Made by a program: the position numbers and the translations under genes. The notes beneath the pieces were generated by a model. That model was not told the origin of the DNA. It made no database searches and saw only the letters and a list, made by a program, of their open reading frames with translations. A stretch of 64,000 nt of DNA from Climacium dendroides. Lineage: Eukaryota; Streptophyta; Bryopsida; Hypnales; Climaciaceae. The stretch is taken from assembly GCA_950106755.1 (NCBI GenBank), contig OX467082.1:24552001-24616000 (forward strand), read 5' to 3'. Of the stretch, positions 1 through 48,978 are shown piece after piece (position 1 is the stretch's first letter; each line of letters opens with the position of its first letter).

Positions 1-960
1 CAAGACGGTAGATTTCAAGGAAATTGATCTAGGTAGTCAACACTGTTGCTGTGATGTTGAGAAGCTCTGACCAGACCTAGTCATGTAACCAGACCACAAA
101 TGCAGAGTGAAAGCAAGAATCACTGACTGGACACTAATTTCCTGCAATGCCCTTCATGAAATTCAAGAATATCCATGCAATCCACTGCAGACGACTGCCA
201 TCTCTACGTAGCCCTGCATTCCAGAAATCTAATGCACTACAAAACACTGAAGAGAACCATTGCATTGACAAGGGTGCCACTCCAATCCACTTCAAAGAAC
301 TCAGCAAACTACAGCAATCCAAGGATATCCACTCCTCTCTCACGGTTCTTGGTCGGCCTGAGAGCGTGTAAGATGCAAATGCAAGTGAAAAGAATGAAAT
401 CCTCCCAATTCTGAACCTAAGTGAGGAGGTCAGGGAATGATTTTGGCGCTGAAAATTTGAAAATGGAGGAGGATGAAGTTGTGATGATTGCTAAGGAGAC
501 ACGTACGTTCTAGTGGAGATCGTGTTGGGTACGTACACATCTTTTTGCAATGAGTGTTCGTCACTTGGATGTCCTTGGTTGGAAGTAGGGTACTTGTTTT
601 TGGATGAAAACTCGAAGATGGATGAAATTCTTGGATGAAAGGAGTAGGTTTGGCATGATTGCGCCTACCGGCTGGTGGCCGTCACTTGGTGGGGTATACT
701 CTCCTGGCCACTTCCATTTCCTCTCATTTGAAACTTGCTCTCACTCTCTCTTTCAATGTCTGTCTCCTCTCCTTCTCACCCCCCGCTCTCCTCCCTTCCG
801 GCTTGCAGCTGACACTTAGTCGCAGACGATGATGCAGCCCTGTTGATACTAGAAGCGCAACCGACATAACTCCTTAGGCAGCCGACAGAAGCGGAGGCGG
901 GCAACTGACTATTTTTACCAGCCAACATACAGTGACAGCCCAACCGATAGAGAGACCGTT
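1..960. other. No supported gene at left edge
   Basis: Only short open frames on both strands with no recognisable domain and no consistent splice signals. The stretch around 440-560 is low-complexity GT/GA-rich DNA. Nothing here can be assigned. Confidence 0.5.
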
Positions 961-1011
961 TTGCGGCTATGGCGACCTCGGATATGGCACCTGAAAGGTA
1001 TTTGGCTTATC

Positions 1012-1480
1012 CTGTATCGATTGGCAGCCGATACAATTTCCATTCATGAGTTTCTCATAGACATTCAATATGTTTTATCATTCGGTATGGAGTATAGTTT
1101 GCTTATACCATGAGGTGCCTATGCTCAAACTGTGTCGGTTGGCAGCCGATATAGTTTGATCATGTCAGTTTAGGGTTCACTGTCTATCGACTAGCAGTCG
1201 ATATAGTTTGATCATGTCAGTTTAGGGTTCACTGTCTATCGGCTGGCAGCCGATATAGTTTGATCATGTCGGTTTAGGGTTCACTATCTATCGGCTGGCA
1301 GCCGATACAAACTGTACATCCAAGGTTTGAGTTCACTGTCTATCGGCTGGCAACCGATATAGTTTGCTGATCATAGGTTAGGGTTCACTACATTTACCGG
1401 CTGGATTAATGCACAACTTAAGAGCCACTAGAATAATGACTCAGAGTATGTCTGAATAATTGTATCGGTTGGTAGCCGAT
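1012..1480. repeat. Palindrome cluster with a 52-bp tandem array
   Basis: A 19-bp palindrome, TATCGGCTGGCAGCCGATA (9-bp arms around a central G), and variants of it recur here. Copies start near 1014, 1133, 1184, 1237, 1289, 1341 and 1462. Those at 1133-1341 are spaced 51, 53, 52 and 52 bp apart and share the spacer ATAGTTTGATCATGTC followed by a TTTAGGGTTCACT motif, so this is a five-unit tandem array. A partial copy near 1397 and degenerate copies near 1508 and 1558 follow. The array lies just upstream of the first coding remains of the ParB-like locus, so it may be promoter, 5' intron or an expanded repeat. Confidence 0.85.
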
Positions 1481-1555
1481 ACACTAGTTGATCAGATTGG
1501 AGTGCCTTCGATATTAGTTGCCAGCCAATACCCTTGTTTCCTCCTCTAAGTTAAA

Positions 1556-4500
1556 ATGTATTGGTGGTGCAAGAAGCCGATACTTTTGGCCCAAATTCTG
1601 GGAGAACGGGTCTTGAACTCTCGCATCCTAGGAGACGGGTTTGTACCACGTGCGACCTGGAGAGCAGTCGATGCCGTCCAGGAGTGGGGCCTTTGCTGGA
1701 GGGAGAATCCTGATAAATTAGTGGAGATTGCTTGTTCCTTCAAGCTAAAGGGGAATATGACCCCTGGCAAGGGAAATGTGCTATCAGTCATGGCGGTTGG
1801 GAATGACGTGCATGTCATGATCTGCTTGCTTCCAATCGGGGGGGCCCGGTCAGCACTGCTAATTACATTGTGATGGAGTTGCCTGTGGACAAATGCACAG
1901 AGGATGTGTATGGATCCAAATCGATGTCGATGGGTATGACATTTGAGGGCAACACACCTTCCAGTGCAGAAGACTTTGTAGACGGATGGGAATGCTTGAA
2001 GGTAGAGCAGGATGCGCATAATGCTTTTATCAACCACGAGATGCAGAAAGGGAAGAAGAAGGTGCCTGCGAGAAGAAGGCAAGAAGCAGCGACAGCGATT
2101 GAAGTCATGTCCTTTCCTGCTGCGGAGGTGGAATCTCCGAGCAAACCGAAGAGGAAAGGCAAAGCGAAGGACAAAGCTGACAAGGTGTTGAAGCTTACAC
2201 TAGACGAGGCACTTGTACATGGAAATCACCTCATCACGAAAACCAAGGAGGAGGAGGTCGACGTGATCTATCAAGCGTTGGAAACAGGGCTGCTATACGC
2301 ATTTCCATACAGGAAGCAGCAACTTCCGGGTGTCATCCCCTCCAAAAAGCTCCATATTGCACCTGATGAATTGAAGTATAGGAAGATTGCGAAAGACCGC
2401 CTGGGTCAGATATTCACGCTATATTTACCTTCATTCTTTCTTTTTCAAATTAGACTGCATGTCATATTCGTATCGGCTGCCAACCAACATATCTATGTCG
2501 TGACTTATTTCCTGAAATATTGTTATTTCAGGTCAAGACAATGTACAAGGGGTATGGTTCAATTTGGAAGAAGCTTGAAATTCACGGAATTCCTCTCAAG
2601 CGCACTCCATTGCCAACGGATAAGGGGCTAGACCCCGTAATGGACAAGATTCCATTGCAGCATGAGGTGGTCATCATCGACGGGGTTTCTATGCCGTGGT
2701 GGAAGGCACCCAATGTGCATTGGTACATCATTGGCGGGAAACATACAGTCACAGCCTGCCGAGAATTAGCCGAGCAACTGCCGGATGGATCGGATGCAAA
2801 GATTGAACTCCTCGAGTTTGAGGTCATTCCTGTCTTCAGTAGAGACCTAGATACCCTTGTCTGGGTCTCGAATGCCTTGAACCTGAACATCGCGGAGAAG
2901 GTGGCAAAGGAGACCTTCCGATCTTGCGCGGAGATGGGAAGGGCAGCTTGGCTAAAGGCGGGCTCTCCAGAGCCGCATCGTGGAGGAGGCAAGTCGTCAA
3001 TTGCATTTGAGGTATACATCAATCATTTTTCATCTACGCATTAATATTCTAGTTCAATTCAATACTTGCAAATGTATTGGCTGGCAGCCGATACCGCCTT
3101 CATTTGGTCATTACGTGTATTCCAATTCCTTAGTCTTCTAATTGTTGGCTGCCAGCCGACACCATTTTCACTCAATCTGAATGATGGGTTCGAACTCTTA
3201 CAGGCAGCGAAGCTAAAAGTGATGGCGCACTTCGTGGAGGAGAAGGTGTCCTCAAAGCTTCCGTTCATTTTCATCAAGGAGGACACATGGATGATATGGA
3301 CGGAGGTGTTCCAAGCGTGGGAAAGTGGGGAACTCATTGGCGATGATGGAACGGTTCCGAATTCGCTCGTGCCTCGGATTCCTCTGACGCACATCACAAA
3401 AACCGATCTCATGCCAACACTTGGGCTTCAGGATTCAGACCTTTGTGAGCTAGGGCGGGAGATCATTGCCAACCGCGTTTGCATAAAGAATACTGCCAAG
3501 GCCAAGTCTTCAGGGAAGGTAACACTCTACAACTAGTGCAAAGACAAGAAACTCAACAGGATTGTGATGAACGAAATCATGTGGAACAGGAAGAAGTATC
3601 CCCTTTTATGCAAAGATGTGGGGTGGGTCCCATATACAAATGAAGCTTGGGAGGAGCTTGCAAATAAGGAAGGCTATTCTGTTGCTGCTGTCATAAACGT
3701 GTGGAAGGACGTGATGAAATTCACTGATGGCAGCAACTGGTTGATGGGGCGCGTCAACCCAATGAATCCAACGACAGACAAGTCAACGGATGGCAAGGCA
3801 CCGGGGGTCTTCTACACCACGTTGGCGACATATGCCACTACTCCAGTTGCACTGCAGGAAGGGACATTGTCAGACCTCAAATACGAATGTCAACTGGGGC
3901 AGAGTATTCCCGACGTGGTCACATATCTTCGAACTAATCAAGAGCCCTTCTGGCTAGACGCAAATGACAAGAAGTTCATCGTGCTCTTCGGGTATAACGA
4001 AAGTGGCGAAGCATTGACGGTCAACAAGAACGACTTTCTCGACATTTTGGTGGCTACAGAAATTGTGCTCCACGGTGAGGACAAAAATAGAGAGCCCTTC
4101 ATCCCCCTCCCAATGTTGCTGATCGGGAATTCACGCTTCTGAGATAGTGTCACAGCGGCCTCCTCCTCGTCTCAGTCCTCCTGGTACTACCATTCAGTGT
4201 GCTACCAACCATCACCCCGTGGAGGCTTCTTGAAGGCAGAGATTGAGTCGAAGCCAATGGTCACATTGTCCCTAACCTTCCCGAAGCCAGATGACAGAGC
4301 CAAGATTTTTCCAACCTTCAGGCGGTGGACTGGAATCAACAAGCCACTCGATTACACTACAACAAAAGCAGTGTTTTATGATTGCAAAATATGACTGCAG
4401 TGAGTCGTAAAATCAAAAAATATGACTCACGCAAAAATCACTGTAGATGACTCGGAATATGACTGACTCTAGTCGTTTAGAAGCAGTCGCTTCAGACATC

Positions 4501-7326
4501 AGTCATATTGGCAGTCATATTTTTCGAGGGGTATAAATACCCATTTTTAGCCATAGTATGCCAACATGACGTAATCTTTGACTTTCTTAGGGGAGTCTTG
4601 ACTTTTTCTTGAGTTGCTCGGGCAAACAAAAAAATCCTACGTGGAATATGACTATGGTCAGTCATATCTTTGGATGATGTGGAATATGACTACAGTTAGT
4701 CATATTTTTGAATGACGTGGAATATGACTGCGGTCAGTCATATTTTTGGATGACATGGAATATGACTGCAGTTAATTATATTTTTTGATGACATGGAATA
4801 TGATTGCAGTTAGTCATATTTTTGGATGACATGAAATATGACTGCAGTCAGTCATATTTTTTGATGGCATGGAATATGACTAAGGTGAGTCATATTTTGC
4901 AGTAATGTAGAATACGACTCTCGTCAATCATATTTTATGGAATATGACTTCTGTAAGTCATATTTTTGACTTTATGAAGTTGCAAGTAGCTTCCAATGTC
5001 TTTGTTTCAACTTTTGATGCTTGCATATGCAATCAAAAAAATGAGAGGTTAGTTTTTAGTGATTGAACAACAAAGCCTAACCTTCAAAGATTTACAATCA
5101 ACACAAAATATGTAGCTCAAGTTTAGGATAGGAAGAATAAGATTGATGATGGAGGAAAGAAGAAAAAAAATATAAGTACTAAGAGATAACAAGAATCAAA
5201 AGTTAAAATGCAATAAGGAATAAGAAGCAACAACTAAGACACAACTAAGACACAATAAGAAACAAGAAGCAACACAAAACAAGAAACAACAACTAAGACA
5301 CAATATGAAGCAACAATTAAGACATAAGAACAAATAAAAAGCAACAACTAAGATACAAGAAGAAACAAGAAAATAAAAAGCACCAACTAAGACATGATAA
5401 GAAACAACAAAAAATGAGAGTATAGATGCAACAAGAAGAAATGAGAAGCAAGAACTACAAAACAAGAGAAAACAAAAAAACAAGAACTAGGAAGAAGAAA
5501 GAATTCAAATGCAAGAGAAAGAAAGAATTTAGATGCAACAATAAGAAACAAGAAGCATGAACTAAAGAGCAACAAGAACAAGAGTTAAGATGCAACAAAA
5601 AGCAACAACAAGTGAGAGCTAAGAGACAATAAAAAGTAAGGAAGAAGAGTCACAAGAAGTGATGGCTAGGGTTTCAAAACCCTAAAAAGTGGCGGCTAGG
5701 GTTTCAAAACCCTAAAAAAATGACGGCTAGGGTATCAAAACCCTAAAAAAATAGTGACTAGGATTCAAAATCCAAAAAAATAGGTGACTAGGATTTCAAA
5801 ATTTTAAACAATGACTTCTCTATATTTTTTTGGAATTGCCCAAATTTTTCTTGAATTGCCCAAAACAAAAAAACCCCACTATTATATGAAAATATTAGTG
5901 ATAATATGAGTCAATGTTCCCAAACATGTTTCCTACGTTCCCTATGAGGTACTTTGGTATTCCTAATGGCCATATAGTATACGCTTGTGAAGTACAAGGC
6001 GTAAAAATAACTGGCAGTCATATTTTGCAATCATATTTCTCCCCAAAGTGTTGGCCTTCAAGAATATGACTGCAAGCAGTCGTCAATCATCCTCAGTCAT
6101 AATTTTGCAGTCATAAAATACTGCCATTGTTGTAGTGTTGGTACAATACCAATGTTGAGGGAGAGGTGGACTGGAATGGAGGAATGTGCGGGGTCGGGCA
6201 TGGGCTTCTCGAGCAATTGATGAAGCCGACTCTCAAATCGAAGGACGCAGCCATCATCAACATTTGGGGAGGAGGAAACATCACAGAAATCGCTCTGGTA
6301 AGTCATTCTATCTTTCGCTCACCTTGAAGAGTCTTTAGTGATTGCTAATCGATTTCTGTCAGCTGGCAGCCGATACATTATTGACTTACAAAATTCATCT
6401 ATGAGCATGCAGGGGAATGGCTGGCCCGTCATAGAGTTTGTGAGAGAGGAGGACGGAGTTGCAAGAGCAAAACAACGCGTGAAGGGGATGAATCTTGTCT
6501 CCGACAAATACGTAGTACCTCCTCAAGCGACGCTCGCATTGACGGGGACGGGGACTGCTGGCGCAGCCAAACAAGCGCCTATTTTGTCGATGTCATCCAC
6601 ACAGCTGCCACCGTTGGGGACTGAAGGCGCAGCGGAACAGGTGGCTATTATGCCGATTTCATTCTCACAGCTGCCGCCGCCAACGTCATCGCCCATGTCG
6701 TCGCTCAATCAGGCTGGCACTGCTGGACCATCGCGGCAACGCACTCCATTGTCTACAATCTCAAATGACTCGGGGAGTGTTCCTTCCAATGGCGAGGATC
6801 TCACTCGCAGGCCCAAGCGTTCGCGTCCCATATCTTCGGTGCCCTATCGGACTCCGTCGCTGGACTCAGTTCAATGTCACCAATCATCCCCGAACTCTGG
6901 AATTGGAGCTGGAGGTCTAGACATTGCAGTCATCTCCCACACCATGGTGGTGGATTTGCATACTGTCCCGCCTTCAGAGAAGATCTACAGAGAGGGGACG
7001 GCGCAAGTGGTCATACCTGTACATTAGCCTCAAGGGACACTCACAGCCATTGGGATGCTAGCGACTGCAGCAGATGTTCGTATCGGCGGCCAGCCGATAC
7101 CCGAGGGGGCTTCGCACGGTGAACCGAGATGAGGACGGAGCAAAGCAGCTGCGATCGCTCTCACTTCGAATTCCTTGGACTCGCGGCGCTCTGCCCGGAC
7201 AAACAACAAGAGGAACCGAGCTGTCATGGAAGGAGTCAAAGGTGCAGCCACACAAGACCACGACTTCCCAAATGAACCGATGTCTCCCGTCCATTCTCTT
7301 AAGCGGATGCGGTCTAGAGATTCGTA
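1556..7326 (+). pseudogene. Decayed gene: ParB/Srx-like plus DNA-methyltransferase-like protein
   Basis: Coding pieces: 1556-~1840, ~1840-2409, 2544-3011, 3204-4354, 6141-6297 and 6413-7027, with a further possible C-terminal piece to 7326. A lysine-rich N-terminal half precedes a ParB/sulfiredoxin-like segment at 2544-3000 (WYIIGGKHTV motif, then CREL, an IPVF-type strand and LNLN). After the 6298-6412 intron follows a motif I/X-like stretch (LLEQL ... INIWGGGN ... ALGNGWPVIEF) as in amino-DNA methyltransferases. Motif I has N where D is usual, and I find no DPPY. The tail is Ser/Pro-rich. Damage seen: frame change at a G7 run (1838-1844), no GT donor after 2409 (AT instead), TAG at 3534, TGA at 4140 and a CACTA element in an exon at 4355. 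Introns 3012-3203 and 6298-6412 are clean GT-AG. The ParB call is fairly likely and the methyltransferase call tentative. No family member is known to me by name in plants. Confidence 0.6.
4355..6137. mobile_element. Non-autonomous CACTA-type transposon, copy 1
   Basis: The left end is CACTACAACAAAAGCAGT and the right end, read inward, is CACTACAACAATGGCAGT. Flanking trinucleotides are TTA (4352-4354) and TTG (6138-6140), consistent with a 3-bp target duplication with one change. The left 600 bp is packed with TATGACT/AGTCATA subterminal repeats, sparser at the right end. The middle is purine-rich AAGAAGCAACAACTAAGACA-like sequence (about 5200-5640), followed by tandem units carrying AGGGTTTCAAAACCCT (about 5663-5760). 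No transposase reading frame is present. It sits in an exon of the ParB-like gene. Removing the element with one trinucleotide restores the same reading frame across the junction (4354 to 6141), so the insertion is younger than the gene. Confidence 0.85.
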
Positions 7327-7554
7327 GACGGTAGACTTATTCTGTAGTATTCTAGGCGTATCTAGAATACCTCGTTGACACTTAGTGATGCCTGGCTCAG
7401 ATTTGTTTGTAGGGACTTGTCAGTGGGAGCCTTATCCTCAACAGAATAGAATAGGCGTGTAGACTGTCGGCTGCCAGCTGATACTTTCTTGTTCTGTCTA
7501 ATATCTCACGCTGAATTGCATCTCATGTTATATGTACTTCATTTGGCATTGCAG

Positions 7555-8406
7555 ATTATGACTCTCGACCTTCTGAGCACTCCGAAGACACCGTGTCGGA
7601 AGGAGGGGATGAGTGTAACCAACCGGCTCTCGATTCAAGAGAAAATCACACCATCGTTGACCCTCCACAAGTAGCGACTCTGAGATTGTTTCTTTTCCTT
7701 GAGCTCCAAGGAACACTTATGTTCTATGAGCCTCTCATTTTTAAGGGGAAGAATATGCATCAGAGGTCGCAAATAAGAGATCGACCGGGTCTTAAGGAGT
7801 TCCTCTTATTTTGCATGAGTCAGGACATCAAAATTGTCTATTGGTCCTTCTTACCTCTAGAGACTCTCAGGCATCGTCTAAACAATATTACGTGGAAGGT
7901 GCCGGAGATCGGACAACATTACCTAGCCTTCAGTCAGGAGATGTGTGACGAGAGTGAATACCGAGACCCTTCGGCTCCCACACAACCAATTTTCCTCAAG
8001 CGTCTATCACGAATCCTCGGTTTCGTGCCTGAGTTGTACAATAATGGTGCAACGATCAACAACTTGCTGATCATAGACCACTACCCCTTTAGGAATGTCT
8101 CCACCCGTATGTACATTGTACTCGGAAAAGCAAAAGAAGGGTGGAAAAAGTAAGCTGTCATTACTCCAGGCCTCCATGATATCGTTTCTGGAAGGGTTTT
8201 TAGCTTCAGATCTCACGATCCCGCAATTCTGTGAGAGAAACGCTCATGTCGGGACGCCGCGTTGTATGCTGGGATCCCCATTGCATACTCTCTACGTAGT
8301 TGTGACACCACCATATCAAAAGGGATTTGAGGTACCCTATACGGAGGAGGAGCTACTCGCCATGGGATCTAGCAGCCCAATCAACGAGGACCAAGAGGCT
8401 GTATAA
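7555..8406 (+). pseudogene. FCP1/NLI-interacting-factor-like domain, unit 1, catalytically dead
   Basis: The exon starts after a GCAG acceptor at 7554 and is open in one frame to about 8090. It resembles plant FCP1-like (NIF, HAD superfamily) domains: a strand LRLFLFLELQGTL, then RPGLKEFLLFCMSQDIKIVYWS, then LLIIDHYPFRN, the place of the family's LLIDDSPYK motif. The nucleophile motif DxDxT is replaced by ELQGT, so phosphatase activity is not expected. Near 8090 the similarity shifts to the next frame and ends at TAA 8404-8406, so there is a one-base disruption or an undetected intron. The second frame carries a C-terminal helix (SLLQASMISFLEGFL). The preceding intron carries the palindrome at 7465. 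A palindrome follows immediately after the stop at 8409. Confidence 0.6.
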
Positions 8407-8539
8407 TGTATTGACTGGCAGCCGACACATTTTGTAGATAGTGTAAACTGTACATAGACAGGAATACTACTAGTCTAGAGATCTTATGTAAACATTATTC
8501 TTTTAGACATTTAATTGTAATAAAGGCTTTACCGGCCGG

Positions 8540-8915
8540 ATGTCCGCCTGCACATAGCGGATGTTCCTTTCGCTCTCGAAGCATTCAGATGTTTCCTTCG
8601 AGAGTTTGATCGTTAGCGCACGGACACTGTAATCAGGTGTTGTGGTTGTTGCAGGTGCATGCACTGGATTACCTCTCCGCAATCTATGCTGCACGTAATG
8701 ACAGAGTCCGTGATTTGGTCAGATGAAGATTTCGGCAATGAAATCGGACAGGACTTTGTCATTACGTGTAGCAGAGGTTGCAGAGAGGTCATACAGTGCT
8801 TCCACCCAAGCAGCGGCAACATTTGATAACAAGGTTGGCCTATACCCTTAGACTCTCGAAGGATGCGTTTGAATGCTTTCGGAGAGAAATCGGCTCTGCC
8901 ATGTATGGCGGACCA
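8540..8915. repeat. Long imperfect inverted repeat (foldback)
   Basis: The left arm at about 8540-8710 is reverse-complementary to the right arm at about 8745-8915, with pairing continuing to a loop near 8717-8740. Examples: GCACGTAATGACAGAGTCCG (8691-8710) against CGGACAGGACTTTGTCATTA (8745-8764), and CCTTCGAGAG (8597-8606) against CTCTCGAAGG (8853-8862). Read as protein, the two arms give related sequences (ADVPFALEAFRCFLRE and ADFSPKAFKRILRES; LHVMTES and LHVMTKS). It therefore looks like an inverted duplication of a coding fragment. A transcript would fold into a hairpin of about 170 bp. Confidence 0.8.
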
Positions 8916-9103
8916 GGTCCACATTTTTTTCATTATCATGTCCTATGATCCTCTTGGCTCCTGTCGATAATAAATGATTCATTGTTCTTGGATTCTGTCA
9001 GTCTTGCGTATCGGCTGGCAGTCGATACGCCTTGTGCTTGTCTAATCTCATCTGGTATCCGTAGTCTTATAATCATGCGACGACTAATTTCTGTTCTGTT
9101 CAG

Positions 9104-9850
9104 GAGTCCAACAATGGAAAATCACATTCATTCAAAAAATGTGTGGTCCTTTGTGTCACAAGACTGCTTTGTTCGGTCGACCCAAATATTGAGGTGGATA
9201 AGTGGGACCCGCACAAAAACGTCATCAAAAGGCCGAGGCTTGTTGCAATGTTCGCGATGTTGTTTGAAAAGTTCCACGTTGGGATTTGGTCCAAAATGCC
9301 AATAATAGAACTTAGGTCATTACTTGTGCACTTGCTTCCAAAACATGTCAGAGATAAACTTGCGTTCGTATATGGGAGAGAATATTGTGCAGATAGTCAG
9401 AATTTCCCATGGTGTTACAAATTACTATCAACACTTTTCAATAAGACACCATCCAAGGAAATTTGTTTCCCGGACCAAGTCCTCATGGTCAACTCCTTTC
9501 CGCTTTCGCTCAGAAGGACATTGGATACAGCATGCTACATTCCGCTGCCATTTACGGGGGATCTCAACTTTCCAAATGACAGTAGAGTCATTCCAAACAT
9601 TTCAACGGATATTATTCCATTAATTTATCCAATGCACGAGCATGACTCAGTCTCAGAATACGTGAAGGCCGCAAACAGACCAGGACAATTACACTATGAA
9701 GTTGCGTAGTCTATTAAGTACGAGAAGCCAAATTGGAAGGGGATTTTCTGGTAAGTTGACTTATATCGTATCGGCAGCCAGCCGATACCCTTCTACATGT
9801 CCGCACTTTTATATCGCAGGACACAATCTACAACATCGAAGCTTCTTTTT
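9104..9850 (+). pseudogene. FCP1/NLI-interacting-factor-like domain, unit 2, catalytically dead
   Basis: The exon begins after a TTCAG acceptor ending at 9103 and runs in one frame to TAG 9707-9709. The frame continues as coding-like sequence (SIKYEKPNWKGIFW) to a GT donor at 9751. A 69-bp intron (9751-9819) with a palindrome at 9769 follows, then a short exon. Family features: KKCVVLCVTRLL where the DxDxT strand should be (both Asp absent), RPRLVAMFAMLFEKFHVGIWS, CADSQNFPWCYKLLSTLF, a VLMVNSFPLSL loop and a tail with DSVSEYV. The order and spacing match the plant FCP1-like family and unit 1 upstream. It is a tandem relative of unit 1, or a second domain of one gene. The in-frame TAG suggests decay. 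Confidence 0.6.
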
Positions 9851-10109
9851 ATTTTCTAATCTATTATGAGGGATCTTCTGGAGATTCTTCTGGGATATCA
9901 GCTGCCAGCTGATACTCGCAGTTCACTTTACTGGACTGCATGGACTCAGACTTCCAGAAGGATGTGGAGCGGGATGCTCTTCTACATATGGATGGCGGAC
10001 TTAGCCAGTTCTGATAGTTTACGTAGGAAGTCACTTTCATAGATCGAGGTGGTTCAAACATTCATGTTAGCAGTGGTCTATAGTGTCGGACGCCAGCCGA
10101 CACTCTGCT

Positions 10110-12200
10110 TAGAATTTGGGAACGACTTTCGAGGACCTTGTGTAATCACGTTTTTCATATGTTTAACTACTACTTATGAGCTTTGAACTCTATCATTCGC
10201 CATATGATGTACTAATTTGGTTTATTTTTTTGTTGCGGCCATTTTCATTCATTGCTTGTTGCACACATGGTATTCTACTTTATCAGTTGATGGCCGATTT
10301 TGTTCTGGACTAAGGATTTGTCCAGAATTAGTTAAATATCAGTTCACATTTTTATTGCATTAAGAAAAAAATTAAAAATAGTTTTTTTCCAAAATTCAAT
10401 TGTACAAATTTGTACTAGACTAGTAAGGGAATGTGTGGAAAAATTTCAAAAACTTTGACTACATGGATTGAAAGATTATAATGTTTGAATTTAAAAGAAT
10501 TTTTTTCTCTGACCTTGCTTAATAGGGCCAACGAACTTTAATTCCTAAAGTGAGATTTTTATAATACATGTAGATGGGCAATTTTGCTGAATGGCGCCAT
10601 TCCACAACTCTGGTAGTTTTTATGGTTTAGACTGATGGTCGGAAATGTACACCAGTGCTAGATGTTTGAAATCTACACTTGGCTTAGAAGCCACTTTTAT
10701 GATTCACACTAGGCAATTTAAAAATGCCACATGAAATACCGCCACTTTAATGAAATTCCCCATCAAGGAAATTTGCCAAAAATGATTTGATTTTCAAACC
10801 AATAGGTGCACTTCTTCATTTCTACAATAATCTTGAAAATCATTTAGCAACCACTTTCTGGCCTCATCGTCCTTCAAGGGTTAATCCTTAAAAAGACTAG
10901 GACACATTTTACAATAAAAACATATTGAAAATTAAAATTGCCATATTGCTGTGTACTGAGCAAAATTTCACTTTCTTCATTTTTAAAATTCAATTGAACC
11001 ATAGACTATGATGATGAGTGGAAACAAATTTTATCACTTCTTCTATGTAGATTGTGAGGTCTTAATCCTTGAACACTGATGCATCCAAAAAACATCCTTT
11101 GAACAAATAAAAAATGTGTTTGTAGATGAAAATAAGAAGAATTCATCTCTTTTCAACACAATTACAAACAATGGTTGCCAACATTGACACAAGAGCCAAG
11201 AAGCAACTTATGGAGGTGGTAGATTGTCTCCAAAGGATACAAAATTTAAGAAATGTGGTAACCACACACTTATGCACATTAATAGTGAAGCAACAGTATT
11301 AAGATAGAACAACTTAATCCCATCAATCATCCAATTTTGAAATCTATTAAACCCTCCCATATGCATCAATCACCCACCTATTACCATAATCTCAGCAACC
11401 CTTCAGCACCATGACAATGCACTTGGGAGGGGGCATGTCATCATGTGGTTTAGCATGGGTCTACCTAGTCATGCTTTACCAAATTAGTACCCACAAACTT
11501 TAAAAAATCACAGAAAATTCATTTCTTGTAGGAATGTCTTCATTCTATTTGCAAATGACTTCAGGTCTCTCAAACTTTCCAATCTTTGAATTATGTGAGT
11601 TGACTAATAACTTCTCCAAAGGTATCTAAACCGCAAAGTTAACATGGGTGGTAAGAGGCTACCTTGGAAGGCCTGAAATTTCAGGGCTATCGTAACATAT
11701 GCAATAATTTATCCTCTTGCGTACTCCCCATTCAGTCCATTCAGAATTATGAGCAACTGTTACAGTGTGTCTGGCAATCAATCTCCGGGCTTCAGTGTTG
11801 CTGCCGCTGGAATGCAAACTGCTGGCCACTTAAGAAAGCAAAGCCGTTTTCAGAAAAATTGCGACAAAGCTCTTGATTGTCATGTAAGTTTCCTTGTGAT
11901 CCCATTCCTACATTGTGAGATCGGTGTACACATCTGCCTACTTGTTATTTTGTAGTTTCAGCAAGAGAGTACTTGCCAATCAAGTGTATGAATTGAAAAA
12001 TTTACAATCCGGAGCCCCATCTGTCTAACTTTCCATCTCACAAGTTGCTGCCAACTGAACTGAGCCACGTTTCACGTGAATTACAGAGCGCAACATTTCA
12101 AAGTACTACTTGTAATTGACACCTAAGAAAATCTTCTGCCTGCCGCGGCCACGCACAGGGCTAATTAAATTACGAACTTTCTCGTGAGAAAGCGGCCAAC
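10110..12200. other. AT-rich intergenic DNA
   Basis: No gene supported. The segment 11,460-11,640 resembles 35,920-36,100 (shared GGAATGTCTTCATTCT and flanks), and parts near 10,470 resemble repeats near 22,410 and 63,700. A fragment at 11,680-11,890 ends in a plausible GT donor (CATGTAAGTTT), but its protein is not recognisable. Confidence 0.5.
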
Positions 12201-12202
12201 CT

Positions 12203-12405
12203 AGTGAAGAATTTGCAAATTGCACTAGAAAACGAAGCTGGACAGAGGAGAGAAGAAGTTTCTCAGTCTAGCCAGCGATGCATTCTTTCCATTTGCTTGG
12301 CATGACGCTGTAGAAGATGCTTGCAAGACAGGAGTGTGAACGTCATTGTTCAACCAGGCGGTAGCAAGAGTCTACCAAGATGCTATTGATTGTCGTGGAG
12401 TTTAG
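12203..12405 (+). pseudogene. purH: PurH (AICAR formyltransferase/IMP cyclohydrolase) fragment
   Basis: The plus strand at 12268-12336 encodes LASDAFFPFAWHDAVEDACK, the conserved C-terminal block of bifunctional PurH. It is preceded in another frame by a LQIALENEAG segment that fits the region just before it. It is followed, after a frame change at a TGA, by VNVIVQPGGSK and then QDAIDC in a third frame. Only the last part of the enzyme is represented and at least two frame changes are needed. It is a dead fragment, probably a retrocopy or duplicated 3' end. The functional gene must lie elsewhere. Confidence 0.8.
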
Positions 12406-12900
12406 TCCTTTTTATTTATTTTTTCAATTGAAGTATGTCACACTTCCTACACTACTGAAAAATTGTTGACAATTGTCAACAATTGAAACAAACTGACTTA
12501 CACTAATTATAGGATAACATTCACTCGCTTTGTAAGGCGTTTCTGGCTACAGTGTATCCATTTTGGGGGTCTTCATGAACTGCATTGCTATGCATACGGT
12601 CCATTTAATAAAAGTGTTATCCTTGAAACATGTGTATATTTAAATGAAATCTAAAAAAGTTATTTTTTTGTGGTCAGAAATACTGACATTGCTTGCAGTC
12701 TTGGACTAAGTATAAAAGATTGGCAAAATCTGTACTATACACATGTAAAAAGAACTAATACAAGAATCTGTAAATATTCACATAATTGAAAAGAATAAGG
12801 TTCTGGGAGCTTGGGAGCTTGTTCTGATAAAAACGTATGATACCAAATCCATTGATCATATTGTCAACAAACTCAGGAAGAATATTGCATGTGTTCATTA

Positions 12901-13083
12901 CAACCTAAATAAAATGGGACACGAGCAAGGCTTATCATGAATTCATGACCTACTCAAAACAACCTAAATAAAATGGGACACGAGCAAGGCTTATCATGAA
13001 TTCATGACCTACTCAAAACAACCTAAATAAAATGGGACACGAGCAAGGCTTATCATGAATTCATGACCTACTCAAAACAACCT
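12901..13083. repeat. 59-bp tandem repeat, three copies
   Basis: Units starting at 12901, 12960 and 13019 begin CAACCTAAATAAAATGGGAC and contain TCATGAATTCATGA, itself a perfect palindrome. Copies are essentially identical, so the expansion is recent. No coding sense is visible. Confidence 0.95.
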
Positions 13084-13555
13084 TAAAAACATGGATCCAA
13101 AGTGGAAACTTATGTCTGGACGGAGGGAGTGCTAGCTACCCCTGGTTCAAGAGCAACCAATGAGACCAGTTATGACGAACTTGCAATGATGACAACTTGT
13201 AATGAATCGAATCAATTTTAGAATCACAGGAATTACAATTTGAATACCTTCCTTCACCGACAATTGAAGCTAAGACATATATAATCATTGAGTGCTAATT
13301 GAATTGTTGAAATTATTTTGTACAAATACTTCCAGCTAGTTGGATCTAGAGCGGCTGCCAATGGTCTGCCCAAATCTCCAGAAGCTATAATTTGAATGTG
13401 CTATCTAGAATGCGGCTTACAAAGTTCGGCAAGCATTGCCGCCGTACTGGCCATGCTCAATACATGTTTCTAATGTGGGTTTAGGGTTTAGGGTTCTCTC
13501 TAGCCATGAACTGTGGACGCCCACCGAATCGGCATATGGTTGGGATCTTGGATCC

Positions 13556-14722
13556 TCAGGAGGTTGGACACAGATTAATTTGAGGTTGGAAGAACAAGCC
13601 GTCGTTGAAAAAAGTTCCATGATTCTCAGCCACAACGTCATGGCGACTCCAACGCTGTTTATTCAAGTCATACAGCATCCCAACCCAGATTTTGCGGTAT
13701 GTGACCGACAACAAGAGATCCTTCCCACATTCATGGATGACCAATTGGCTCTGTAGAAGAAATGAATTACTTATATCTGCCACCTCCAGATAGTAGCACA
13801 ACTTTTTCAATGGAACCTCTGCGATAAGTTCCCAAGAGATTTGACTTTTCTCCTTCTTGTACATGCGAACGAAAGTAATGGGATCCACAGCATCATAGTC
13901 CACTGCATAGAGGCATGATTCTCCAAGAGTAGGGTATCCCCGTATGGTGTGCTCATAAGGCAGTAGGTTGGGATTGTTGGATGCAATCACGCCAGTCCTC
14001 ACGGCCAGACTATCGCAATCAACCAGCTTCCCCTGGCTCGGGTCAAACACGGTTGATTCATGTTCACCCAAGCGCACCAAACTGCGACAGAACACGATTT
14101 CATTGCTTGAATCTGCGTAAGCTATCAGCTCCCTTGGCACTGACACAGCGGACCATGATTTCCGTGCTGAGTCGAGTATTTGCACCAAATCGGAGTTCTT
14201 CCAATGCACCACCACCTTGAACGTCTTGGAATCCACGTTCACTTTCAGTCCCACGTGCACATCACACAACGAACTCTGCTCCCCTGTGTCTTCTTCCGGC
14301 TCTGTTGGATAATCAAGCCCGAGAGACATAAAAGAACTCCGGTGTGTTATGATGTTGATGACTGCCAGAAGTGGGTCTCGGGACATGCCTAAACCACTGA
14401 AAAGAATAAGCCCACCGCTGGCACTCAGTGGTCTCCAGTATTGTACTGAAGACGGGAGAAGGACTTGGATCCATTTCTGCATGGAAAACGCATAGAACCA
14501 GGGATGGGGTTCATGAGGAGACTCGCGGAGGAAGAAAGGCTCTCCTTCAAAAATTCTAGAGTAGGTGTAGGCTCTCGTTGCCTTGGAGCACCCGTAGCGA
14601 AAGCGGACGAAGTCTTGGAGAGATAGTTTTTCCAAAATCGCGCGGATATCTTCAGCTTTCAGTTCTAAAAATTTCGGAAAGATGATTGGTGGCATGAAAG
14701 GGTGTCTGCTGACGATATCCAT
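13556..14722 (-). CDS. F-box protein, moss-type, 388 aa
   Basis: An intronless frame starts at ATG 14720-14722 on the minus strand. Residues about 18-60 fit an F-box (LKAEDIRAILEKLSLQDF, then RFRYGCSKATRAYTYSRIF), the segment that binds SKP1 in SCF ubiquitin ligases. The remaining ~320 residues have the alternating strand pattern of kelch/FBA-type substrate-binding domains (SWSAVSVP, STVFDPSQGKLV, ISWELIAEVPL, GMLYDLNKQRWS). Large F-box families of this shape are common in plants. The target is unknown. Intact ends and no internal stop argue for a working gene. A short TTTAGGG-type run (about 13,476-13,494) lies just beyond the stop. Confidence 0.8.
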   Translation of the reverse strand: MDIVSRHPFMPPIIFPKFLELKAEDIRAILEKLSLQDFVRFRYGCSKATRAYTYSRIFEGEPFFLRESPHEPHPWFYAFSMQKWIQVLLPSSVQYWRPLSASGGLILFSGLGMSRDPLLAVINIITHRSSFMSLGLDYPTEPEEDTGEQSSLCDVHVGLKVNVDSKTFKVVVHWKNSDLVQILDSARKSWSAVSVPRELIAYADSSNEIVFCRSLVRLGEHESTVFDPSQGKLVDCDSLAVRTGVIASNNPNLLPYEHTIRGYPTLGESCLYAVDYDAVDPITFVRMYKKEKSQISWELIAEVPLKKLCYYLEVADISNSFLLQSQLVIHECGKDLLLSVTYRKIWVGMLYDLNKQRWSRHDVVAENHGTFFNDGLFFQPQINLCPTS

Positions 14723-17700
14723 TTTTCAGGTGGGCCTCGGTCTTGATCGATCGATGAGCTGGACTCCTTTATAAAAAAACTCGGCCGAATCTCACGTAAA
14801 ATCAGGCAAGTGAATCGTCTCCGTCGGTTCGAGCTGGGTAGTCACTGGAGACAAGATAGGGAGATATGTGGTGGATCAATCGTTGTCCACTCTTGAAGAA
14901 ATCTCGTGATTCCCAGAGTGGGCAAAGCCTCAACAAATCTGCAAAGGAAAGTGAAATCAGCACATCGATTAGTGAAGAACCATCATGACTAGCTGTCGAA
15001 GCGGAGAATCCAACGTCGAGAAATGAATCAAGAATAAAATCCGAGTCTCATTTACAGCCACGAATCTTGATTGATATATCCGTCTAACAAAATTTTAGGC
15101 CGCTGAAATTGAAACCGGAAATGGGTACCGGAAATCAAATGGGTACCGGAAATTTGAAACCCAATCAATATCAATCTAATCAAGTTTTGTTGCAAAGTGT
15201 TTTGTAAGGGTGGATATCACTCACCTCAGGGTCAAAATATGGAAGAAGTAACCACATTAGAACTCGGGATACTCTCAAGGACAAAATGCTCATGCCCAAG
15301 ATTCTTCCAAAAAGGTATTCACTCTGACACGCACTACGTACACAGAAACGCTAGATTGCGAAATCGTCAGACAAATCTGAAGCATCGAGGATTCAATGTC
15401 GCAGAGAACCCGTCGGGAGCCCTGAAAATTTCGGATAGTAAAATTCGAGAACCGTATGAGTTGCATCAGTCTGCGTGGCTGCAAATTGCAAGTGCGTCAG
15501 AATGAGGGGGGCAGGGAGGGATTCAAAAACAACGAGCAACGAAGAAGACGTAGACGATCGATTTGAATTCAAATTGAATATGGCGCGCATATTCCTTCAC
15601 TAAAATTTTGAATTCAAAGCTCGGCCGAAAATGAATGAGCAACCATTTTCATCCATCCTCTCCCGGTTTCCATCCACGGGCTGCACCACCATTCGTAGGG
15701 GATGATGAATGTTGTGAAAACCACAAATGTAATCAACCCCTAAAGGCCTAACATGCATTTTTTTGGTTACATAGGAATTTGGGACAGGAACATGTGACTA
15801 GAGATTTTTATATTTTGGCCCAAATTTTGATAGAAGGTGGGGACGAGGAATATCTTTCATATGCAATAAATTTAATAACATTTGGAAATATAAATCAAAA
15901 GTTATGGCTTCATAGGTTATTTTTTTTCCATGAATGGGCAATCAGGACAAATTCTTTAAAATCACTTTTTCTAGAAACAAAAATTTGAAATCGGTTTTCT
16001 AAAGTTGTATATACATGGAAAGCTTTGAATCATTCTATTTTGATTAATGAATCCAAAATTATGAGGATTTTTTGTTTGCGGGCAATTATGGATTCTCTAC
16101 TCTAAAAAAAACTTTGAAGTCCTTTATCTTACTCAATTTTCAATATTTTTGGAAAAAAATAAAATCATAGGATGTAGATTGTTTATTATAACATTGCAAT
16201 CACTAGGATTGGCATTTTTCAATTGCATAATTAAATTGTTAACAATTTAGTTATTTGAATCATCTTCTACGACTGTCTACTTAATATTTTTTTCCTATAT
16301 GTTTTACAATTCTAAATGATCTAAAATTTTCAAGTATGTAGCCAACTTGTTTAGGAAAAAGAATCTAAAGAAGCACCACCATTTTGGACATTTTTCATAG
16401 AAAAATGAGCTTGTGAAGTAGAGTTGCCTGGGTTTTTGTAGGGCCAAGAAAATGATTTTAATGAATTTGAATGCTTATATCTTGCAATCCACGCAGTGGA
16501 AATTTTTGAAAATTTTTCTACATATTCTTAAATCAGCATACTACAAGATCCTACGATTACATACATAAAAAAAGAATTCAAAAATTTGGCACTTGTACAA
16601 AAATGGCAATTTTCAAGTGTTTTTGGTAAAAACATGGTTGTGGAACTTTAGGGGTTGAGAAGCTTTAAGAAAAATCATGTAGAATCAAGGACAAAAAAAT
16701 ACATTGCTCCTAATTGCTTTAGCACATTATTCCTCAATAATATATTAATCCTTCATTGATACTTCCTGAAAACACTTCCATTCAAAAATTGTAGTTCTTA
16801 ACTACTTGTCAAACTCAATTTTAGCTCCGTATGATGACTACATATGCCCATAGGTTGACACACATTTGTACCTACTACTTCAAATGAATTCCACATTCTC
16901 ATCAACATTCACCAATACTTTCTACCTTGGAGTTGGACCTTTGGTCACTAAAGAGAGGAAGCTCGACTCCTTGCAAACGTCATGATGTGCAATTTTGAGA
17001 GTGAATGGGATGTGGCACAGAAAACGATTTGTTGTTCAATGTTGGTGTGAGGCCAATGCAAAAAGTCATCAAATGCTTGAAGTTAGAACTAGATGTCCAA
17101 TTGGTGCAATGCATTTACAAATTAATAATTCATAGGATCAAGTCCACAATAAGCTTCTTATGGCTTAGTTGAGTAAGGAAGACACTGTTGTCAACATCCC
17201 AACCCACACAAATTAGAAAGTATAGGATTTGAAGGTCAAGATAAGGGTTTAGTTAAATGCGTCCTCCTTTAGAAGAAAATAGCAACAACCATCAAAAAAT
17301 TATAAAAATGACTTGGATGAACATTGAACTTACTTTAAAGTTATTCAATGTTTTTAATATTATCATTATTTGGACTACCTAATTATTATTTTTATATTTT
17401 AATTAATTATTAGGCAGAAAGTTGTCCAAGCTACTAGGAAGCTATGGTATTCATTAAGAATCTAATAATTTTTGGTTGACTACCTTAATAATAAAGCCAT
17501 GGCCTTTTAAGATTAGATTTTTAGATTTTTTTTCAATAATATTCATAGGAATTATAGGTCCCTCTACTTCAGTAAAAAATGCACGCATCCCAAAGTGCTA
17601 CACTATCTCAAAGGAGTTACAGGGTTCATTTAGGCAACAATATGGAAGATGAAGGGAAGTATAGTGGCATGAGTAGCTATGCTTTCAATTTTGAAAATTT

Positions 17701-31339: not shown

Positions 31340-34180
31340 TGCTAGCGTGGCGGAATCAACCATCGATGCTCAAGTGATTATTTTTTGTTCTGATAGGGAT
31401 TTATAAAAGTAGCATTGTCGTTCAGGTCATATAAACATTCAAATGTTGAAACAAATGGTGCGAGACAATGTAGCAACATGATTGCCATCTTTGACAAAAG
31501 CAAAGCTTAAATCTATTTGTAAAATGTATTCACATAGGGCCTCAATCCTGATCAATATAGTGAGAAAGAGAGCTTCTAAACTTGACCAATTCTTTCATTA
31601 TAATATTTTAGGCCGTTTTCAAGTTGCATTGTATGGAGGTCATTACTACTTCATAACCTACAAGGGTAATCATAATAACTTTAGATTTGTGTTCTTCTTG
31701 AAGAATTGATAGGATATACTAACTTTTTTTTAAAGCCTATATCAACTTGTGTATAGAGAGACAAAAACTAGAATGTCAAAATTATAAATAGATAATGGGA
31801 GCAAATATGTGTCTAAAGAGTTTCAAGGCTATCTTTTCGACAAAGGAATTTGACATGATTTAATGGTACCATCTATCTAGAGTAGAACGGTGTAGTTGAA
31901 CGTGACAACCAAATTATAGTGGAAAGTGCACGATCCATGCTTCACCATTGGAGTATGCCTTTGGAATTTTGATGAGAAGCTATTAATACAGCTATGTATA
32001 CACTCAATCGACTGTCTACTAGAACAATATTAGGTTCCATACCTTTTCAATTGTGGCACAGGGAAAAACCAAACCCGAGTTACTTTAAAGAATTTGGAAG
32101 CCTATGCTATAGTCATATCTTCAAGCAAAAATGTCGCAAGCATTGTGAAGGAGTTGTCGAGACAACAACAAATTGTTGTTATGTACATCATATATTGCAA
32201 TTGGTAAAGGAGCTACTTCTAAGAGAACCTCAATTCCTCTAGAAGAACCAAAGATTTATAGGCAAGCTATCAAGAGTCACTATAAAGAGCAATGGCAAAG
32301 AGCCATAGTTGAAGAAATAGACTTGTTTAAGAATGAAAGGTGGTCCTTGAAATTTTTACCACAAGGAGGACCTCCAATTTAAAACAAATGGATGTTCAAA
32401 ATCAAGGTCAAGGCTAATGGAACTATTGAATGTTTCAAAGTACGATTAGTAGAAAAAAGCTTCACTCAAACTTATGGTATGGATTATGAAGAGACTTTTG
32501 CTCCAACATCAAGAAGAAAGACCATACGGTTGATGTTGGCAATCGCAGAAGCAGAGGATTTTGACTTGGTCCAATTTAATATAAAAACTACCTACATGAA
32601 TACTCTATTCTATTAGAAGAGATCTATATGACCTTACCTGAGGATTTCGAAGAAGAAATATACTGAAGGTTTTTTTGGCAATAGAGGCAAAGTGTGTAGG
32701 ATTCAAAAAGGGCTCTACAACTTAAAGCAATCTACTAGGGGATAAAATAAAATTTTCTTAGTTTTTTTTAAGCTTTACAACCTAATACAGAGTTTTACTA
32801 ATCCATGTCTATTTTTCTCAAAATTGGCATCTAAGCTAATCCTTGTTTTATGGGTAGATGATGGACTTGCCATGTGCAAGGACAAACAACTACTAAATAA
32901 AATCATTGCATATTTCAAAGACAACATTCAAAGTCATTGTTGGTGATGCGAACGTGTATGTAGGAATCCACATTAGTCGTAATCAATTCCAACAAACATT
33001 GAATATTGATCAATGGAGATACAGTGATACATAGAGACTATATTGCAAATGTACAGGTTCCAAGACGCTACTCCAATTTCAACTCCAGGTGATCCATATG
33101 TGCATCTCTGCTACCCTAAGAAACAAAATGGTGAAAGAAACCCTACTTTTTCATATCAAGATATTATTGAGTTGTTGCTTTATTTGGCTACATATTCTAG
33201 ACCAGATATAGCATGTGTTGTGCCAATTGTTGTGTAGTATGGGAGTAATTTTTAGGATATCCATTGCATTGTTGTTAAAAGAATTTTAAAGTATTTGTGA
33301 AGAACAACTGATTTTGGTTTGTACTACTTTTTGGATAACAAATCAAATCAACGCCTCATTGCTGATGCTGATGCTAATTATGTAGATAATTTAAATGATC
33401 GCAAAAGCCGAAGTGGGAGCATTTCCATCATCAACAATGGACCAATCGTCTAGCTCAACAGAAAACAAATTTGCACTGCAGGATCTACTACCAAATCAGA
33501 ATAAGTGGTTGCATCACTTATGAGCAAGGAAGTTGTGTAGACCAAGAGACTTATGGTAGATTTTAGGTATCAACAAAAGAGTCCGACGCCATTATATTCC
33601 AACAATCAGTCAGTGATCCGCACTATGCTTAATCCTGAGTTTCACAAGCGAACAAAACACATAGATGTGATGTTCCACATTATTTGGGAATTTCAAGCTA
33701 AAGGAGAAGTTTCGCTAGTGTATGTGCCTACTCAATTTCAACTCGTAGACATCTTCACAAAACCTTTGACTCTTGAGATCTTTCTCCAACTCAAACAAGC
33801 TCTTAACATTCTCAAGAAAGTGCAACATTAAGTGGGAGATACTTTGCAATGATGATTTTTAATGCTTTTCTATGTTCTTATACTAAGTGGGAGTGTTGGG
33901 AGAATTGCCATATCATTGTAAAGAATGTTGAAGCTATCATTAAGTGGTTACTTTAGAGTGGGTGACATTCATATTGTAGATGCTTCTTGATACTATTAAT
34001 GACTTTGTTGTCTCTCTCGAGCAACTATGTCTTCCTATGTTCTCAATTGTGATATTACTATTTTTGTCTTATTCTTGAATGTAATAGTTGCAAAGCCTTG
34101 CAATAAAAGAATAGTTTAGGTGACATGAGATAACTATGTATAGTTCACAAACTTAAGCATGTATGTTTGTTTGGTTACAC
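31340..34180 (+). mobile_element. Decayed Ty1-copia retrotransposon
   Basis: Pieces of a copia polyprotein appear in order on the plus strand, in several frames and broken by stops. They are: integrase (about 31,440-32,140; including a FHYNILG / VALYGGHYYFITY core region), reverse transcriptase (about 32,260-32,620; MDYEETFAPTSRRKTIRLML, and LVLWVDDGLAMCKD at about 32,840 replacing the usual YVDD) and RNase H (about 33,560-33,830; LYSNNQSVI and KHIDVMFHII). A polypurine tract AAGTGGGAG at 33,885 is followed by TGTTGGGAGAATTGCC at 33,894, a typical copia 3' LTR start. The LTR end is unclear. No 5' LTR, primer site or gag was found, so the copy is 5'-truncated and inactive. Confidence 0.88.
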
Positions 34181-47306: not shown

Positions 47307-48978
47307 ATGGGTTTCAAGGGAACTAAGGCCGAGAAGAAGGTCCTGTACGACAAGAAGCTCGTGGAGCTTCTGGATGAGTACACGCAGGTGTTGATCTGCG
47401 CCGCGGACAATGTCGGTTCTAAGCAGTTGCAAGGTATCCGTCAGGGTTTGAGGCCCGATTCCATCGTGCTCATGGGCAAGAACACCATGATGAAGCGTTC
47501 TATTCGTCTTCATGCTGAGAGGACCGGGAACACGGATTACGAGCAGCTCCTTCCTGCCCTCGTGGTATGTTTCTGGTTTTTGCTTTTCGGTAGTGGTTTG
47601 ACCTATTGTAGTGGTGCTTCAGGTGCTCTCGGTACGGTTATCGTGTTCGGGAAAGAGTGAAATGATGAACTATTGTTTCCCTATTGGTTTGACAGCCGCT
47701 ATGATGGCATATTATTGCTTCAAACTTGCTGATCACTCTTGACCTGTCGTACTTTATATAGGATAGTTAGTGTTTTGGTGCAGTTTTTTTTCGGTAGTAG
47801 GGTTTCCATATTCATGGAGGGTGTCATGTTTTTAAAATCTTTCGTCTTTTAGGTCAGACCATTTGTAGTGATTCGTGGTTTTCTACGTGGACCAATGTGA
47901 ACTGATGATTATTTATTTCCCTTTTGGTTTGATAGCCGCTATGATGGCATATTATTGCTTCAAACTTGCTGATCATGTTTTGTCCACATAGATAAGCCCT
48001 GTTTTATGATCATGAGTTATGTGTGCTGGATCAGTGCGCCCTGCATCGTATGCACTTCTTGTAGGGTTTTCTGTGTCTGATAGACGCTCATGTAGTGATG
48101 AGATGACAGGCGGAGTGAAGTGACGAGTATTGTTTCCCTATTGGTTTGATTGCTGCAATGATGGCATATTTTTGTCTCAAACTTGCTGATCACTTGCCAC
48201 ATATGAAATCATGTTATGTAAAGGAACGGATTGATCCTCTCCAGTGGTATTGAAAGTGAGCTGTTCTTTTGATCAGGGTAATGTTGGTCTCATCTTCACC
48301 AAGGGCGACTTGAAGGAGGTTCGTGAGGAAATCGGAAAGTACAAGGTGGGAGCCCCCGCCCGTGTGGGTCTGGTGGCCCCCGTGGACGTGGTTGTCCCCC
48401 CTGGCAACACCGGTCTTGACCCCTCTCAGACTTCTTTCTTCCAGGTCCTCAACATCCCCACCAAGATTAACAAGGGAACCGTCGAGATTATCGCCCCTGT
48501 GGAGCTGGTGAGGAAGGGTGACAAGGTGGGATCCTCCGAGGCTGCCCTGTTGGCGAAGCTCGGCATCAGGCCCTTCTCTTACGGTCTTGTCGTGGTGAAC
48601 ATCTACGACAGCGGCTCCGTGTTCGCTCCGGAGGTTTTGGACCTGACTGAGGATGATCTCTTGGACAAGTTCGCTGCTGGTGTCTCCACCGTGGCCGCGC
48701 TTTCTCTGGCCTTGGGTTACCCGACCTTGGCTGCTGTCCCACACAGCTTCGTCAACTCATACAAGAACTTGTTGGCCATTGCTGTGGAGACGGAGTACTC
48801 GTTCCCTCTCGCCGAGAAGACGAAGGAGTACCTCAAGGACCCCTCGAAGTTTGCTGCTGAAGTTGCGCCTGCTGCCACTGAGTCTGCGGGGGCACCTGCA
48901 GCTGAAAAGGAGGAAGAGAAGGAGCCCGAGAAGGAAGAGGAGTCGGACGACGACATGGGTTTCAGTCTTTTCGATTAG
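47307..48978 (+). CDS. RPLP0: 60S acidic ribosomal protein P0 (uL10)
   Basis: Two exons, 47307-47564 and 48277-48978 (GT-AG, phase 0), encoding 319 aa. Seen: an N-terminal rRNA-binding region ([20 protein letters not shown], then [11 protein letters not shown]), [12 protein letters not shown] directly after the intron, [18 protein letters not shown], and the alanine/glutamate-rich tail ending [10 protein letters not shown]. That tail is shared with P1/P2 and recruits elongation factors. P0 anchors the P1/P2 stalk on the large ribosomal subunit. The 712-bp intron hosts three box C/D snoRNA copies. The gene looks fully functional. Confidence 0.98.
47655..47738 (+). ncRNA. Box C/D snoRNA, copy 1 (RPLP0 intron)
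   Basis: C box ATGATGA at 47,662-47,668, D box CTGA at 47,729-47,732 and a C'-like TATGATGG in the middle. The terminal stem is GAGTGA/TCACTC. The 16 nt ending one base before the D box (TTATTGCTTCAAACTT) are complementary to the conserved 18S rRNA stretch AAGTTTGAGGCAATAA, with one G-U pair. By the D-box+5 rule the target would be the first U of that UUU. Processed from the host intron. Confidence 0.85.
47895..47978 (+). ncRNA. Box C/D snoRNA, copy 2 (RPLP0 intron)
   Basis: Same layout as copy 1: C box CTGATGA at 47,902-47,908, D box CTGA at 47,969-47,972 and an identical guide next to D. The terminal stem ATGTGA/TCATGT pairs fully if two G-U pairs are allowed, so the stem is kept although its sequence has changed. 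The first base of the C box departs from the consensus. Confidence 0.75.
48113..48195 (+). ncRNA. Box C/D snoRNA, copy 3 (RPLP0 intron)
   Basis: C box GTGACGA at 48,120-48,126 (one base off consensus), D box CTGA at 48,186-48,189, terminal stem GAGTGA/TCACTT with a G-U closing pair. The guide next to D (GTCTCAAACTT) still pairs with the same 18S stretch, with changes that keep most pairs. This is the most diverged copy and its activity is uncertain. Confidence 0.65.

Follow-up and report, generated by a model that had tools for sequence, protein, structure and literature searches.

Why does one short palindrome recur in every intron that can be bounded at a single moss locus, and what might read it? 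The locus lies at about 0.8–10.1 kb of a 64,000-nucleotide stretch of the Climacium dendroides genome (GenBank assembly GCA_950106755.1, contig OX467082.1, positions 24,552,001 to 24,616,000 of the forward strand), hereafter the window, from whose first letter all positions are counted. An earlier note had taken a 19-bp palindrome to be a mark of the introns of this locus and had offered three readings of it, i.e., introner-like elements that create introns, an intronic RNA hairpin, and binding sites for a dimeric protein, perhaps the ParB-like product of the same locus. With moderate confidence, we propose that the palindrome is a predicted dyad DNA-binding site of a dimeric protein, distributed across a probably selfish, multi-copy gene cluster, where it would serve in self-recognition. 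This proposal is supported by the local density of the sites, their near-absence from coding sequence, a tandem array and their recurrence at varying positions in the introns of distant homologs.

When the window was searched with TRTYRGCTGSCAGCYGAYA at up to 3 mismatches, 40 strand matches, corresponding to 20 sites, were found, all at 796-10102; the remaining 54 kb held no match, and dinucleotide shuffles of the 64 kb averaged 0.22 matches, with never more than 2. The palindrome is thus real and confined to one locus within the 64 kb, as the earlier note had stated. Nineteen of the 20 sites are strong; a matrix built from these 19 scores them at 22.8-35.5, while the next-best matrix windows in the 64 kb score 11.8 (at 666) and 10.1 (at 796) and the best of 20 mononucleotide shuffles scores 14.1. 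The sites share the consensus TATCGGCTG-S-CAGCCGATA, in which position 2 is A or G, and are flanked by a weak G on the left and a weak C on the right. Among the 37 departures from this consensus in the 19 strong sites, 24 are C>T or G>A, and deamination of methylated cytosine could be the source of most variants. Beyond the window, the exact palindrome and a variant with CGGCCG arms each had no match in a viral contig collection, and the exact palindrome occurred in 3 records of prokaryote genome contigs (257 billion bases), close to the 2 that we estimate for chance. The letters of the palindrome, searched as four words, were found in no paper. Likewise, no such system was among the matches listed for titles and abstract openings on moss intron palindromes, on ParB, transposons and moss, on bryophyte anti-silencing, or on Spm/TnpA, introners and LEAFY.

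The four introns that could be bounded (2410-2531, 3012-3203, 6298-6412 and 9751-9819) contain 1, 2, 1 and 1 sites, respectively, which bears out the earlier statement that each such intron holds one or two. Because the limits of exons and introns were set by eye, on the basis of reading frames and splice consensus and in knowledge of the sites, the P values for placement are post hoc: if the 11 single sites are placed uniformly, all four introns are struck with P 6e-4 (the third intron being taken as 6300-6411, which holds the same site), and none of the 11 falls in a conservative list of exons (P 1.7e-6). The claim that exons hold none stands for this list and is less secure at 7081 and 9896, which fall in open frames and may be coding; if those frames are counted, 2 of the 11 sites are exonic (P 5e-5). 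The sites are also not restricted to introns. The first coding frame is preceded by eight of the 19 strong sites, among them the five that form a tandem array with 52-bp spacing; the sites at 8409 and 10084 come after reading frames, and further sites are found between coding regions. The palindrome thus does not mark introns alone; its sites belong to the non-coding parts in general, of which introns are one case.

This distribution also bears on the reading that introner-like elements created these introns, which we consider very improbable. Introners share with this locus a repeated sequence in several introns, and here one motif does recur in every bounded intron. Introners are recognised, however, by similarity that reaches near both splice boundaries, according to PMC9860276, whereas the likeness among the window introns stops at the palindrome, short of the splice sites: after masking of the palindrome, the four introns share no similarity in 6 of 6 pairs (P 0.30-0.88). 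The edges of the conserved exon (exon 2) are, moreover, common to homologs that are about 50-80% identical, and copies of the palindrome are present outside introns.

Searches for homologs returned two proteins for the first coding region, 72 for the conserved exon and one for the phosphatase-like exon, all of them frames called on unspliced DNA, some of which extend into introns. At introns 1 and 2, homology between the window and its relatives ends at the same residues as the intron edges. The break in P0001 and P0002 follows RDRLGQ, just as it does in the window; what their frames read next, in intron 1, is CRLPADT, LSAGSRY and YRLPADT, each of them a reading frame of the palindrome. P0002 has two further palindrome words upstream of its coding part. 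The palindrome of intron 2 is spelled by P0001, P0003, P0004, P0005, P0008, P0022 and the P0010 clade, and P0004 has two palindromes there, the same number as the window. In the P0010 clade, whose peptides read SADGRY, a compensatory arm change between families, from CTG/CAG to CCG/CGG, was considered but is not demonstrated: only the right-arm change is visible, because the left-arm base sits on a free third codon position.

In a systematic comparison, the end of the exon was recognised by script in 42 of the 75 proteins (P0001 was missed) and 6 tails shorter than 12 residues were dropped, which left 36 tails, 24 of which reach a palindrome match attained by no more than 1% of 300 shuffles. 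The P0010 clade, taken as a single lineage, supplies 18 of these 24. Nine of the 12 tails that do not match are at most 18 residues long, and the others are those of P0024, P0033 and P0049 (0.02-0.11 of shuffles). When two degenerate patterns were compared with the whole set, allowing a single mismatch, one or the other was matched in 30 of the 75 proteins. By our reading, the full matches all lie outside the conserved exons, and one match with a single mismatch, that of P0039 at residue 50, lies in an exon.

Besides the window, the palindrome is carried by seven lineages. Their identity in exon 2, with the window included, is 46-84% (P0010 and P0014, of one clade, are 92% identical), and the distance from palindrome to splice donor ranges from about 24 to 141 nt. 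No other likeness among the intron peptides of these lineages is apparent by eye. Presence is thus kept while position is not, which is the behaviour expected of a binding site. The family is probably multi-copy, judging from the many distinct and partly truncated members of the P0010 clade. These relatives matter as well for the possibility that the palindrome is a short mobile repeat that spreads itself and lands preferentially in the non-coding DNA of this family. Some short mobile repeats are typically palindromic, and sites 7081 and 9769 are alike over 25 nt at 96%. The remaining 54 kb of the window, however, lack any copy, the window introns have no common flank, and homologs that diverged deeply carry the site in their introns, which suggests that its presence is under selection; we rate this origin as distinctly unlikely.

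A protein-binding site should be distinguishable from a hairpin in RNA. As an intronic hairpin, the palindrome would form an 8-bp stem with a 3-nt loop and would aid splicing or mark the transcript. Its presence in all four bounded introns and in the introns of homologs agrees with this, as do folding energies of -8.1 and -9.6 kcal/mol for two 19-mers alone. Among the three introns that were folded, 9751-9819 folds around the hairpin as its main structure, while the minimum-energy structures of 2410-2531 and 6298-6412 omit it; the sites in these two carry 2-3 departures from the consensus, so that decay may contribute. The earlier note had taken matched changes in both arms of several variants as a sign that the pairing seems to be preserved. 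Across the 19 sites of this one locus, matched double changes number 5 and 2.7 are expected when columns are shuffled (P 0.09), Watson-Crick cells number 144 of 171 compared with 139 expected (P 0.08), and G-T pairs are not in excess (13 compared with 15.4). Preserved pairing is therefore not significant, and most variants are of the C>T or G>A type noted above.

The sites upstream of, between and behind the genes also speak against a function in intronic RNA, as does an array of lone right half-sites at 858-949. None of 20000 mononucleotide shuffles of 640-1010 reached five half-sites in 95 bp (the maximum was 2), for a pattern, CARCYRAYW, that was written after the sites had been seen. Without left arms, these five half-sites cannot fold as this hairpin. 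They all point in the same direction, with a spacing of about two helical turns (17-23 bp). Taking these points together, we favour DNA over RNA as the active form and consider the hairpin an improbable explanation, albeit slightly less so than the mobile repeat. Sites for a dimeric protein fit best of the three readings offered earlier.

Such a protein need not be made by the element. The main rival to our proposal is that the palindromes are sites of a host transcription factor, exploited by the element as enhancers, introns included, since TRTCGG-N7-CCGAYA resembles an IR7 of auxin response factors. In PMC12041631, these factors are described with TGTCGG-type sites in an IR7-8 arrangement, which equals the spacing of the dyad here, and because position 2 is A or G, some arms do read TGTC. 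Nevertheless, TGTC and GACA are combined in the two arms at only one of the 19 sites (10084), position 2 is A in 14 of the 19 left arms and position 18 is T in 15 of the 19 right arms, and promoter sites need not occupy nearly every intron. We judge a host factor to be unlikely, though less so than any other rival.

According to our proposal of a self-recognition site, a dimeric protein, in the simplest case a product of the element itself, would bind the sites along the whole element, and once bound it might keep the element from silencing, or regulate it, by analogy with VANC for VANDAL and TnpA for Spm; dimer binding, copy number, mobility, an element-encoded binder and the anti-silencing outcome are all parts that we infer. 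The product of gene 1, the first gene of the locus, is a natural candidate for the binder. The arrangement is like that of VANC and VANDAL in that a short motif is concentrated, within one element, in its introns, its intergenic stretches and its terminal non-coding DNA (here with an exon list drawn by eye) and in that part of the motif copies are in tandem (here five palindromes at 52-bp spacing). According to PMC5735166, VANC21 occupies the introns of VANDAL21 as well as its intergenic and terminal non-coding parts; in electrophoretic mobility shift assays it binds a 9-base motif, often arranged as tandem repeats, and its binding to probes from coding sequence is far weaker. PMC10398659 adds that host RNA-directed methylation is aimed at the same non-coding parts of VANDAL. 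The two systems differ in their sites, a 19-bp palindrome here and the 9-base YAGTATTAY for VANC. They differ also in that the site described here is common to widely diverged homologs, whereas VANC target repeats are reported in PMC10398659 to diverge rapidly. No VANC or VANA relative was identified here by Pfam, and no VANC sequence was compared.

TnpA of the maize element Spm/En is an element-encoded activator of its own element, as the binder proposed here would be. Spm TnpA targets subterminal sequences, not introns. The palindromes here, in contrast, also lie in introns, and the insertion with CACTA ends at 4354-6138 is separate from them. Activation of Spm by TnpA correlates with demethylation (PMC10398659). 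A further likeness is to the ParB-parS system, in that palindromic sites are close to a gene, here one with a conserved exon that recalls ParB by eye only; the system differs in that no ParB match is found here by Pfam and in that the sites here are in introns of a eukaryotic nuclear locus. It is conceivable, though we would more readily doubt than affirm it, that a so far undescribed family of multi-copy selfish plant genes, with a protein unrelated to VANC, carries its own palindromic address code, kept over deep divergence in almost all introns and non-coding stretches, and that this code is read by an element-made dimer, possibly with ParB-like spreading as from parS. If the self-recognition proposal is right, recognition of a whole element through motifs planted in introns would have had more than one origin, one of them outside Arabidopsis and based on another protein and a symmetric site. 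Recurrence of the palindrome where the surrounding intron is not recognisably conserved makes whole-length self-marking of a selfish element directly testable, and the palindrome is a sequence tag by which the family can be found.

Several observations weigh against self-recognition by a selfish element. The introns of the homologs are known as translated protein only, in which free codon positions are invisible, and the two sites in open frames, 7081 and 9896, may be exonic. Pfam detected no transposase domain in the pieces scanned. A blastn comparison of 1-1600 with 9801-16000 yielded no terminal repeats beyond chance, the best matches in this decayed copy being a direct one of 14 bases (E 0.03) and an inverted one of 13 bases (E 0.12). 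Nor was a convincing DNA-binding domain found: the scanned pieces of gene 1 gave no Pfam match above the cut-off, and the matches below it were DUF5410 (E 0.014, first coding piece) and an EIN3 DNA-binding domain (E 0.07, in one of 39 exon relatives). The suggestion of a ParB-like product fared less well than that of a dimeric protein, for the ParB family had no Pfam match in gene 1 pieces or exon relatives and the ParB-like PHROG 6392 matched pieces of P0001 only, at E 0.17. No solved structure was matched by sequence. Structure models of the conserved exon and of P0001 with introns read through had a mean predicted local distance difference test (pLDDT) score of 51 and 52, respectively, too poor to use, and their fold comparison gave nothing at E 0.001 and, among the best 50 rows for each, neither ParB nor any other informative match. 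Among viral contigs, 131 stretches fit a pattern of the conserved exon, and none was confirmed as a relative.

The features of the locus are collected in Table 1. The locus exceeds most of the window in G+C content and looks like a decayed copy: it has in-frame stops, an apparent shift of frame near 1840, a changed donor at 2410 and the insertion at 4354-6138.

Table 1. Predicted features of the palindrome-bearing locus in the window, in order of position.
Feature	Positions	Strand	Remarks
Five lone right half-sites CARCYRAYW at 858, 879, 902, 919, 941, no left arms	858..949	+	spacing 21, 23, 17, 22
Upstream cluster of eight palindromes at 1015, 1133, 1185, 1237, 1289, 1341, 1463, 1512	1015..1530	.	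1133-1341: five at 52-bp spacing, tandem array
Gene 1, first coding region	1556..2409	+	apparent frame change near 1840; homologs P0001, P0002
Intron 1, palindrome 2471-2489	2410..2531	+	donor AT; translations of two homologs imply GT
Conserved exon (exon 2), YIIGGQHTV-type motif	2532..3011	+	72 homologs; ParB likeness by eye only
Intron 2, palindromes 3075-3093 and 3143-3161	3012..3203	+	one or two palindromes in the same intron of homologs
Next coding region	3204..4353	+	in-frame stops at 3534, 4140
CACTA-ended insertion interrupting the coding region	4354..6138	.	not part of the palindrome system
Coding region resumed after the insertion	6142..6297	+	
Intron 3, GTAAGT...GCAG, palindrome 6357-6375	6298..6412	+	
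Coding region; frame continues across two stops to ~7325 and includes site 7081	6413..7024	+	
Palindrome in open frame, surroundings 60% GC; probably exonic	7081..7099	.	
Palindrome upstream of gene 2 or within its intron	7465..7483	.	acceptor-like AG at 7552-7553
NIF/FCP1-like phosphatase coding region, weak match	7554..8150	+	PF03031 E 0.009, below cut-off; homolog P0075, 67% over 53% of query
Palindrome directly behind the reading frame ending at 8403	8409..8427	.	
Palindrome upstream of second NIF-like region	9009..9027	.	
Second NIF/FCP1-like coding region, one in-frame stop	9104..9750	+	PF03031 E 0.034, below cut-off
Intron 4, GTAAGT...CGCAG, palindrome 9769-9787	9751..9819	+	
Perfect palindrome in open frame or, with the CAG that ends at 9921 as acceptor, in a longer intron	9896..9914	.	
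Last palindrome, downstream of the coding part	10084..10102	.	

Two diverged NIF/FCP1-like regions, at 7554-8150 and 9104-9706, stand in tandem. In the first, LFLELQGTL occupies the place at which active members have acidic residues. The CACTA-ended insertion at 4354-6138 contains 38-bp tandem units of the AATATGACTGCAGTCAGTCATAT type and has a relative at about 52635-54458 with 67-68% identity. A foldback element at 8568-8889 matches its own reverse complement at 71%. Elsewhere in the window, three small nucleolar RNAs of snoZ102_R77, a plant family, are found in a row at 47655-48195 between coding pieces that are RPLP0-like (gene name by eye); these RNAs and the gene fragments of the window both have the look of a plant host. 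A fragment at 33541-33828 resembles, by eye, the RNase H end of a Copia-type element.

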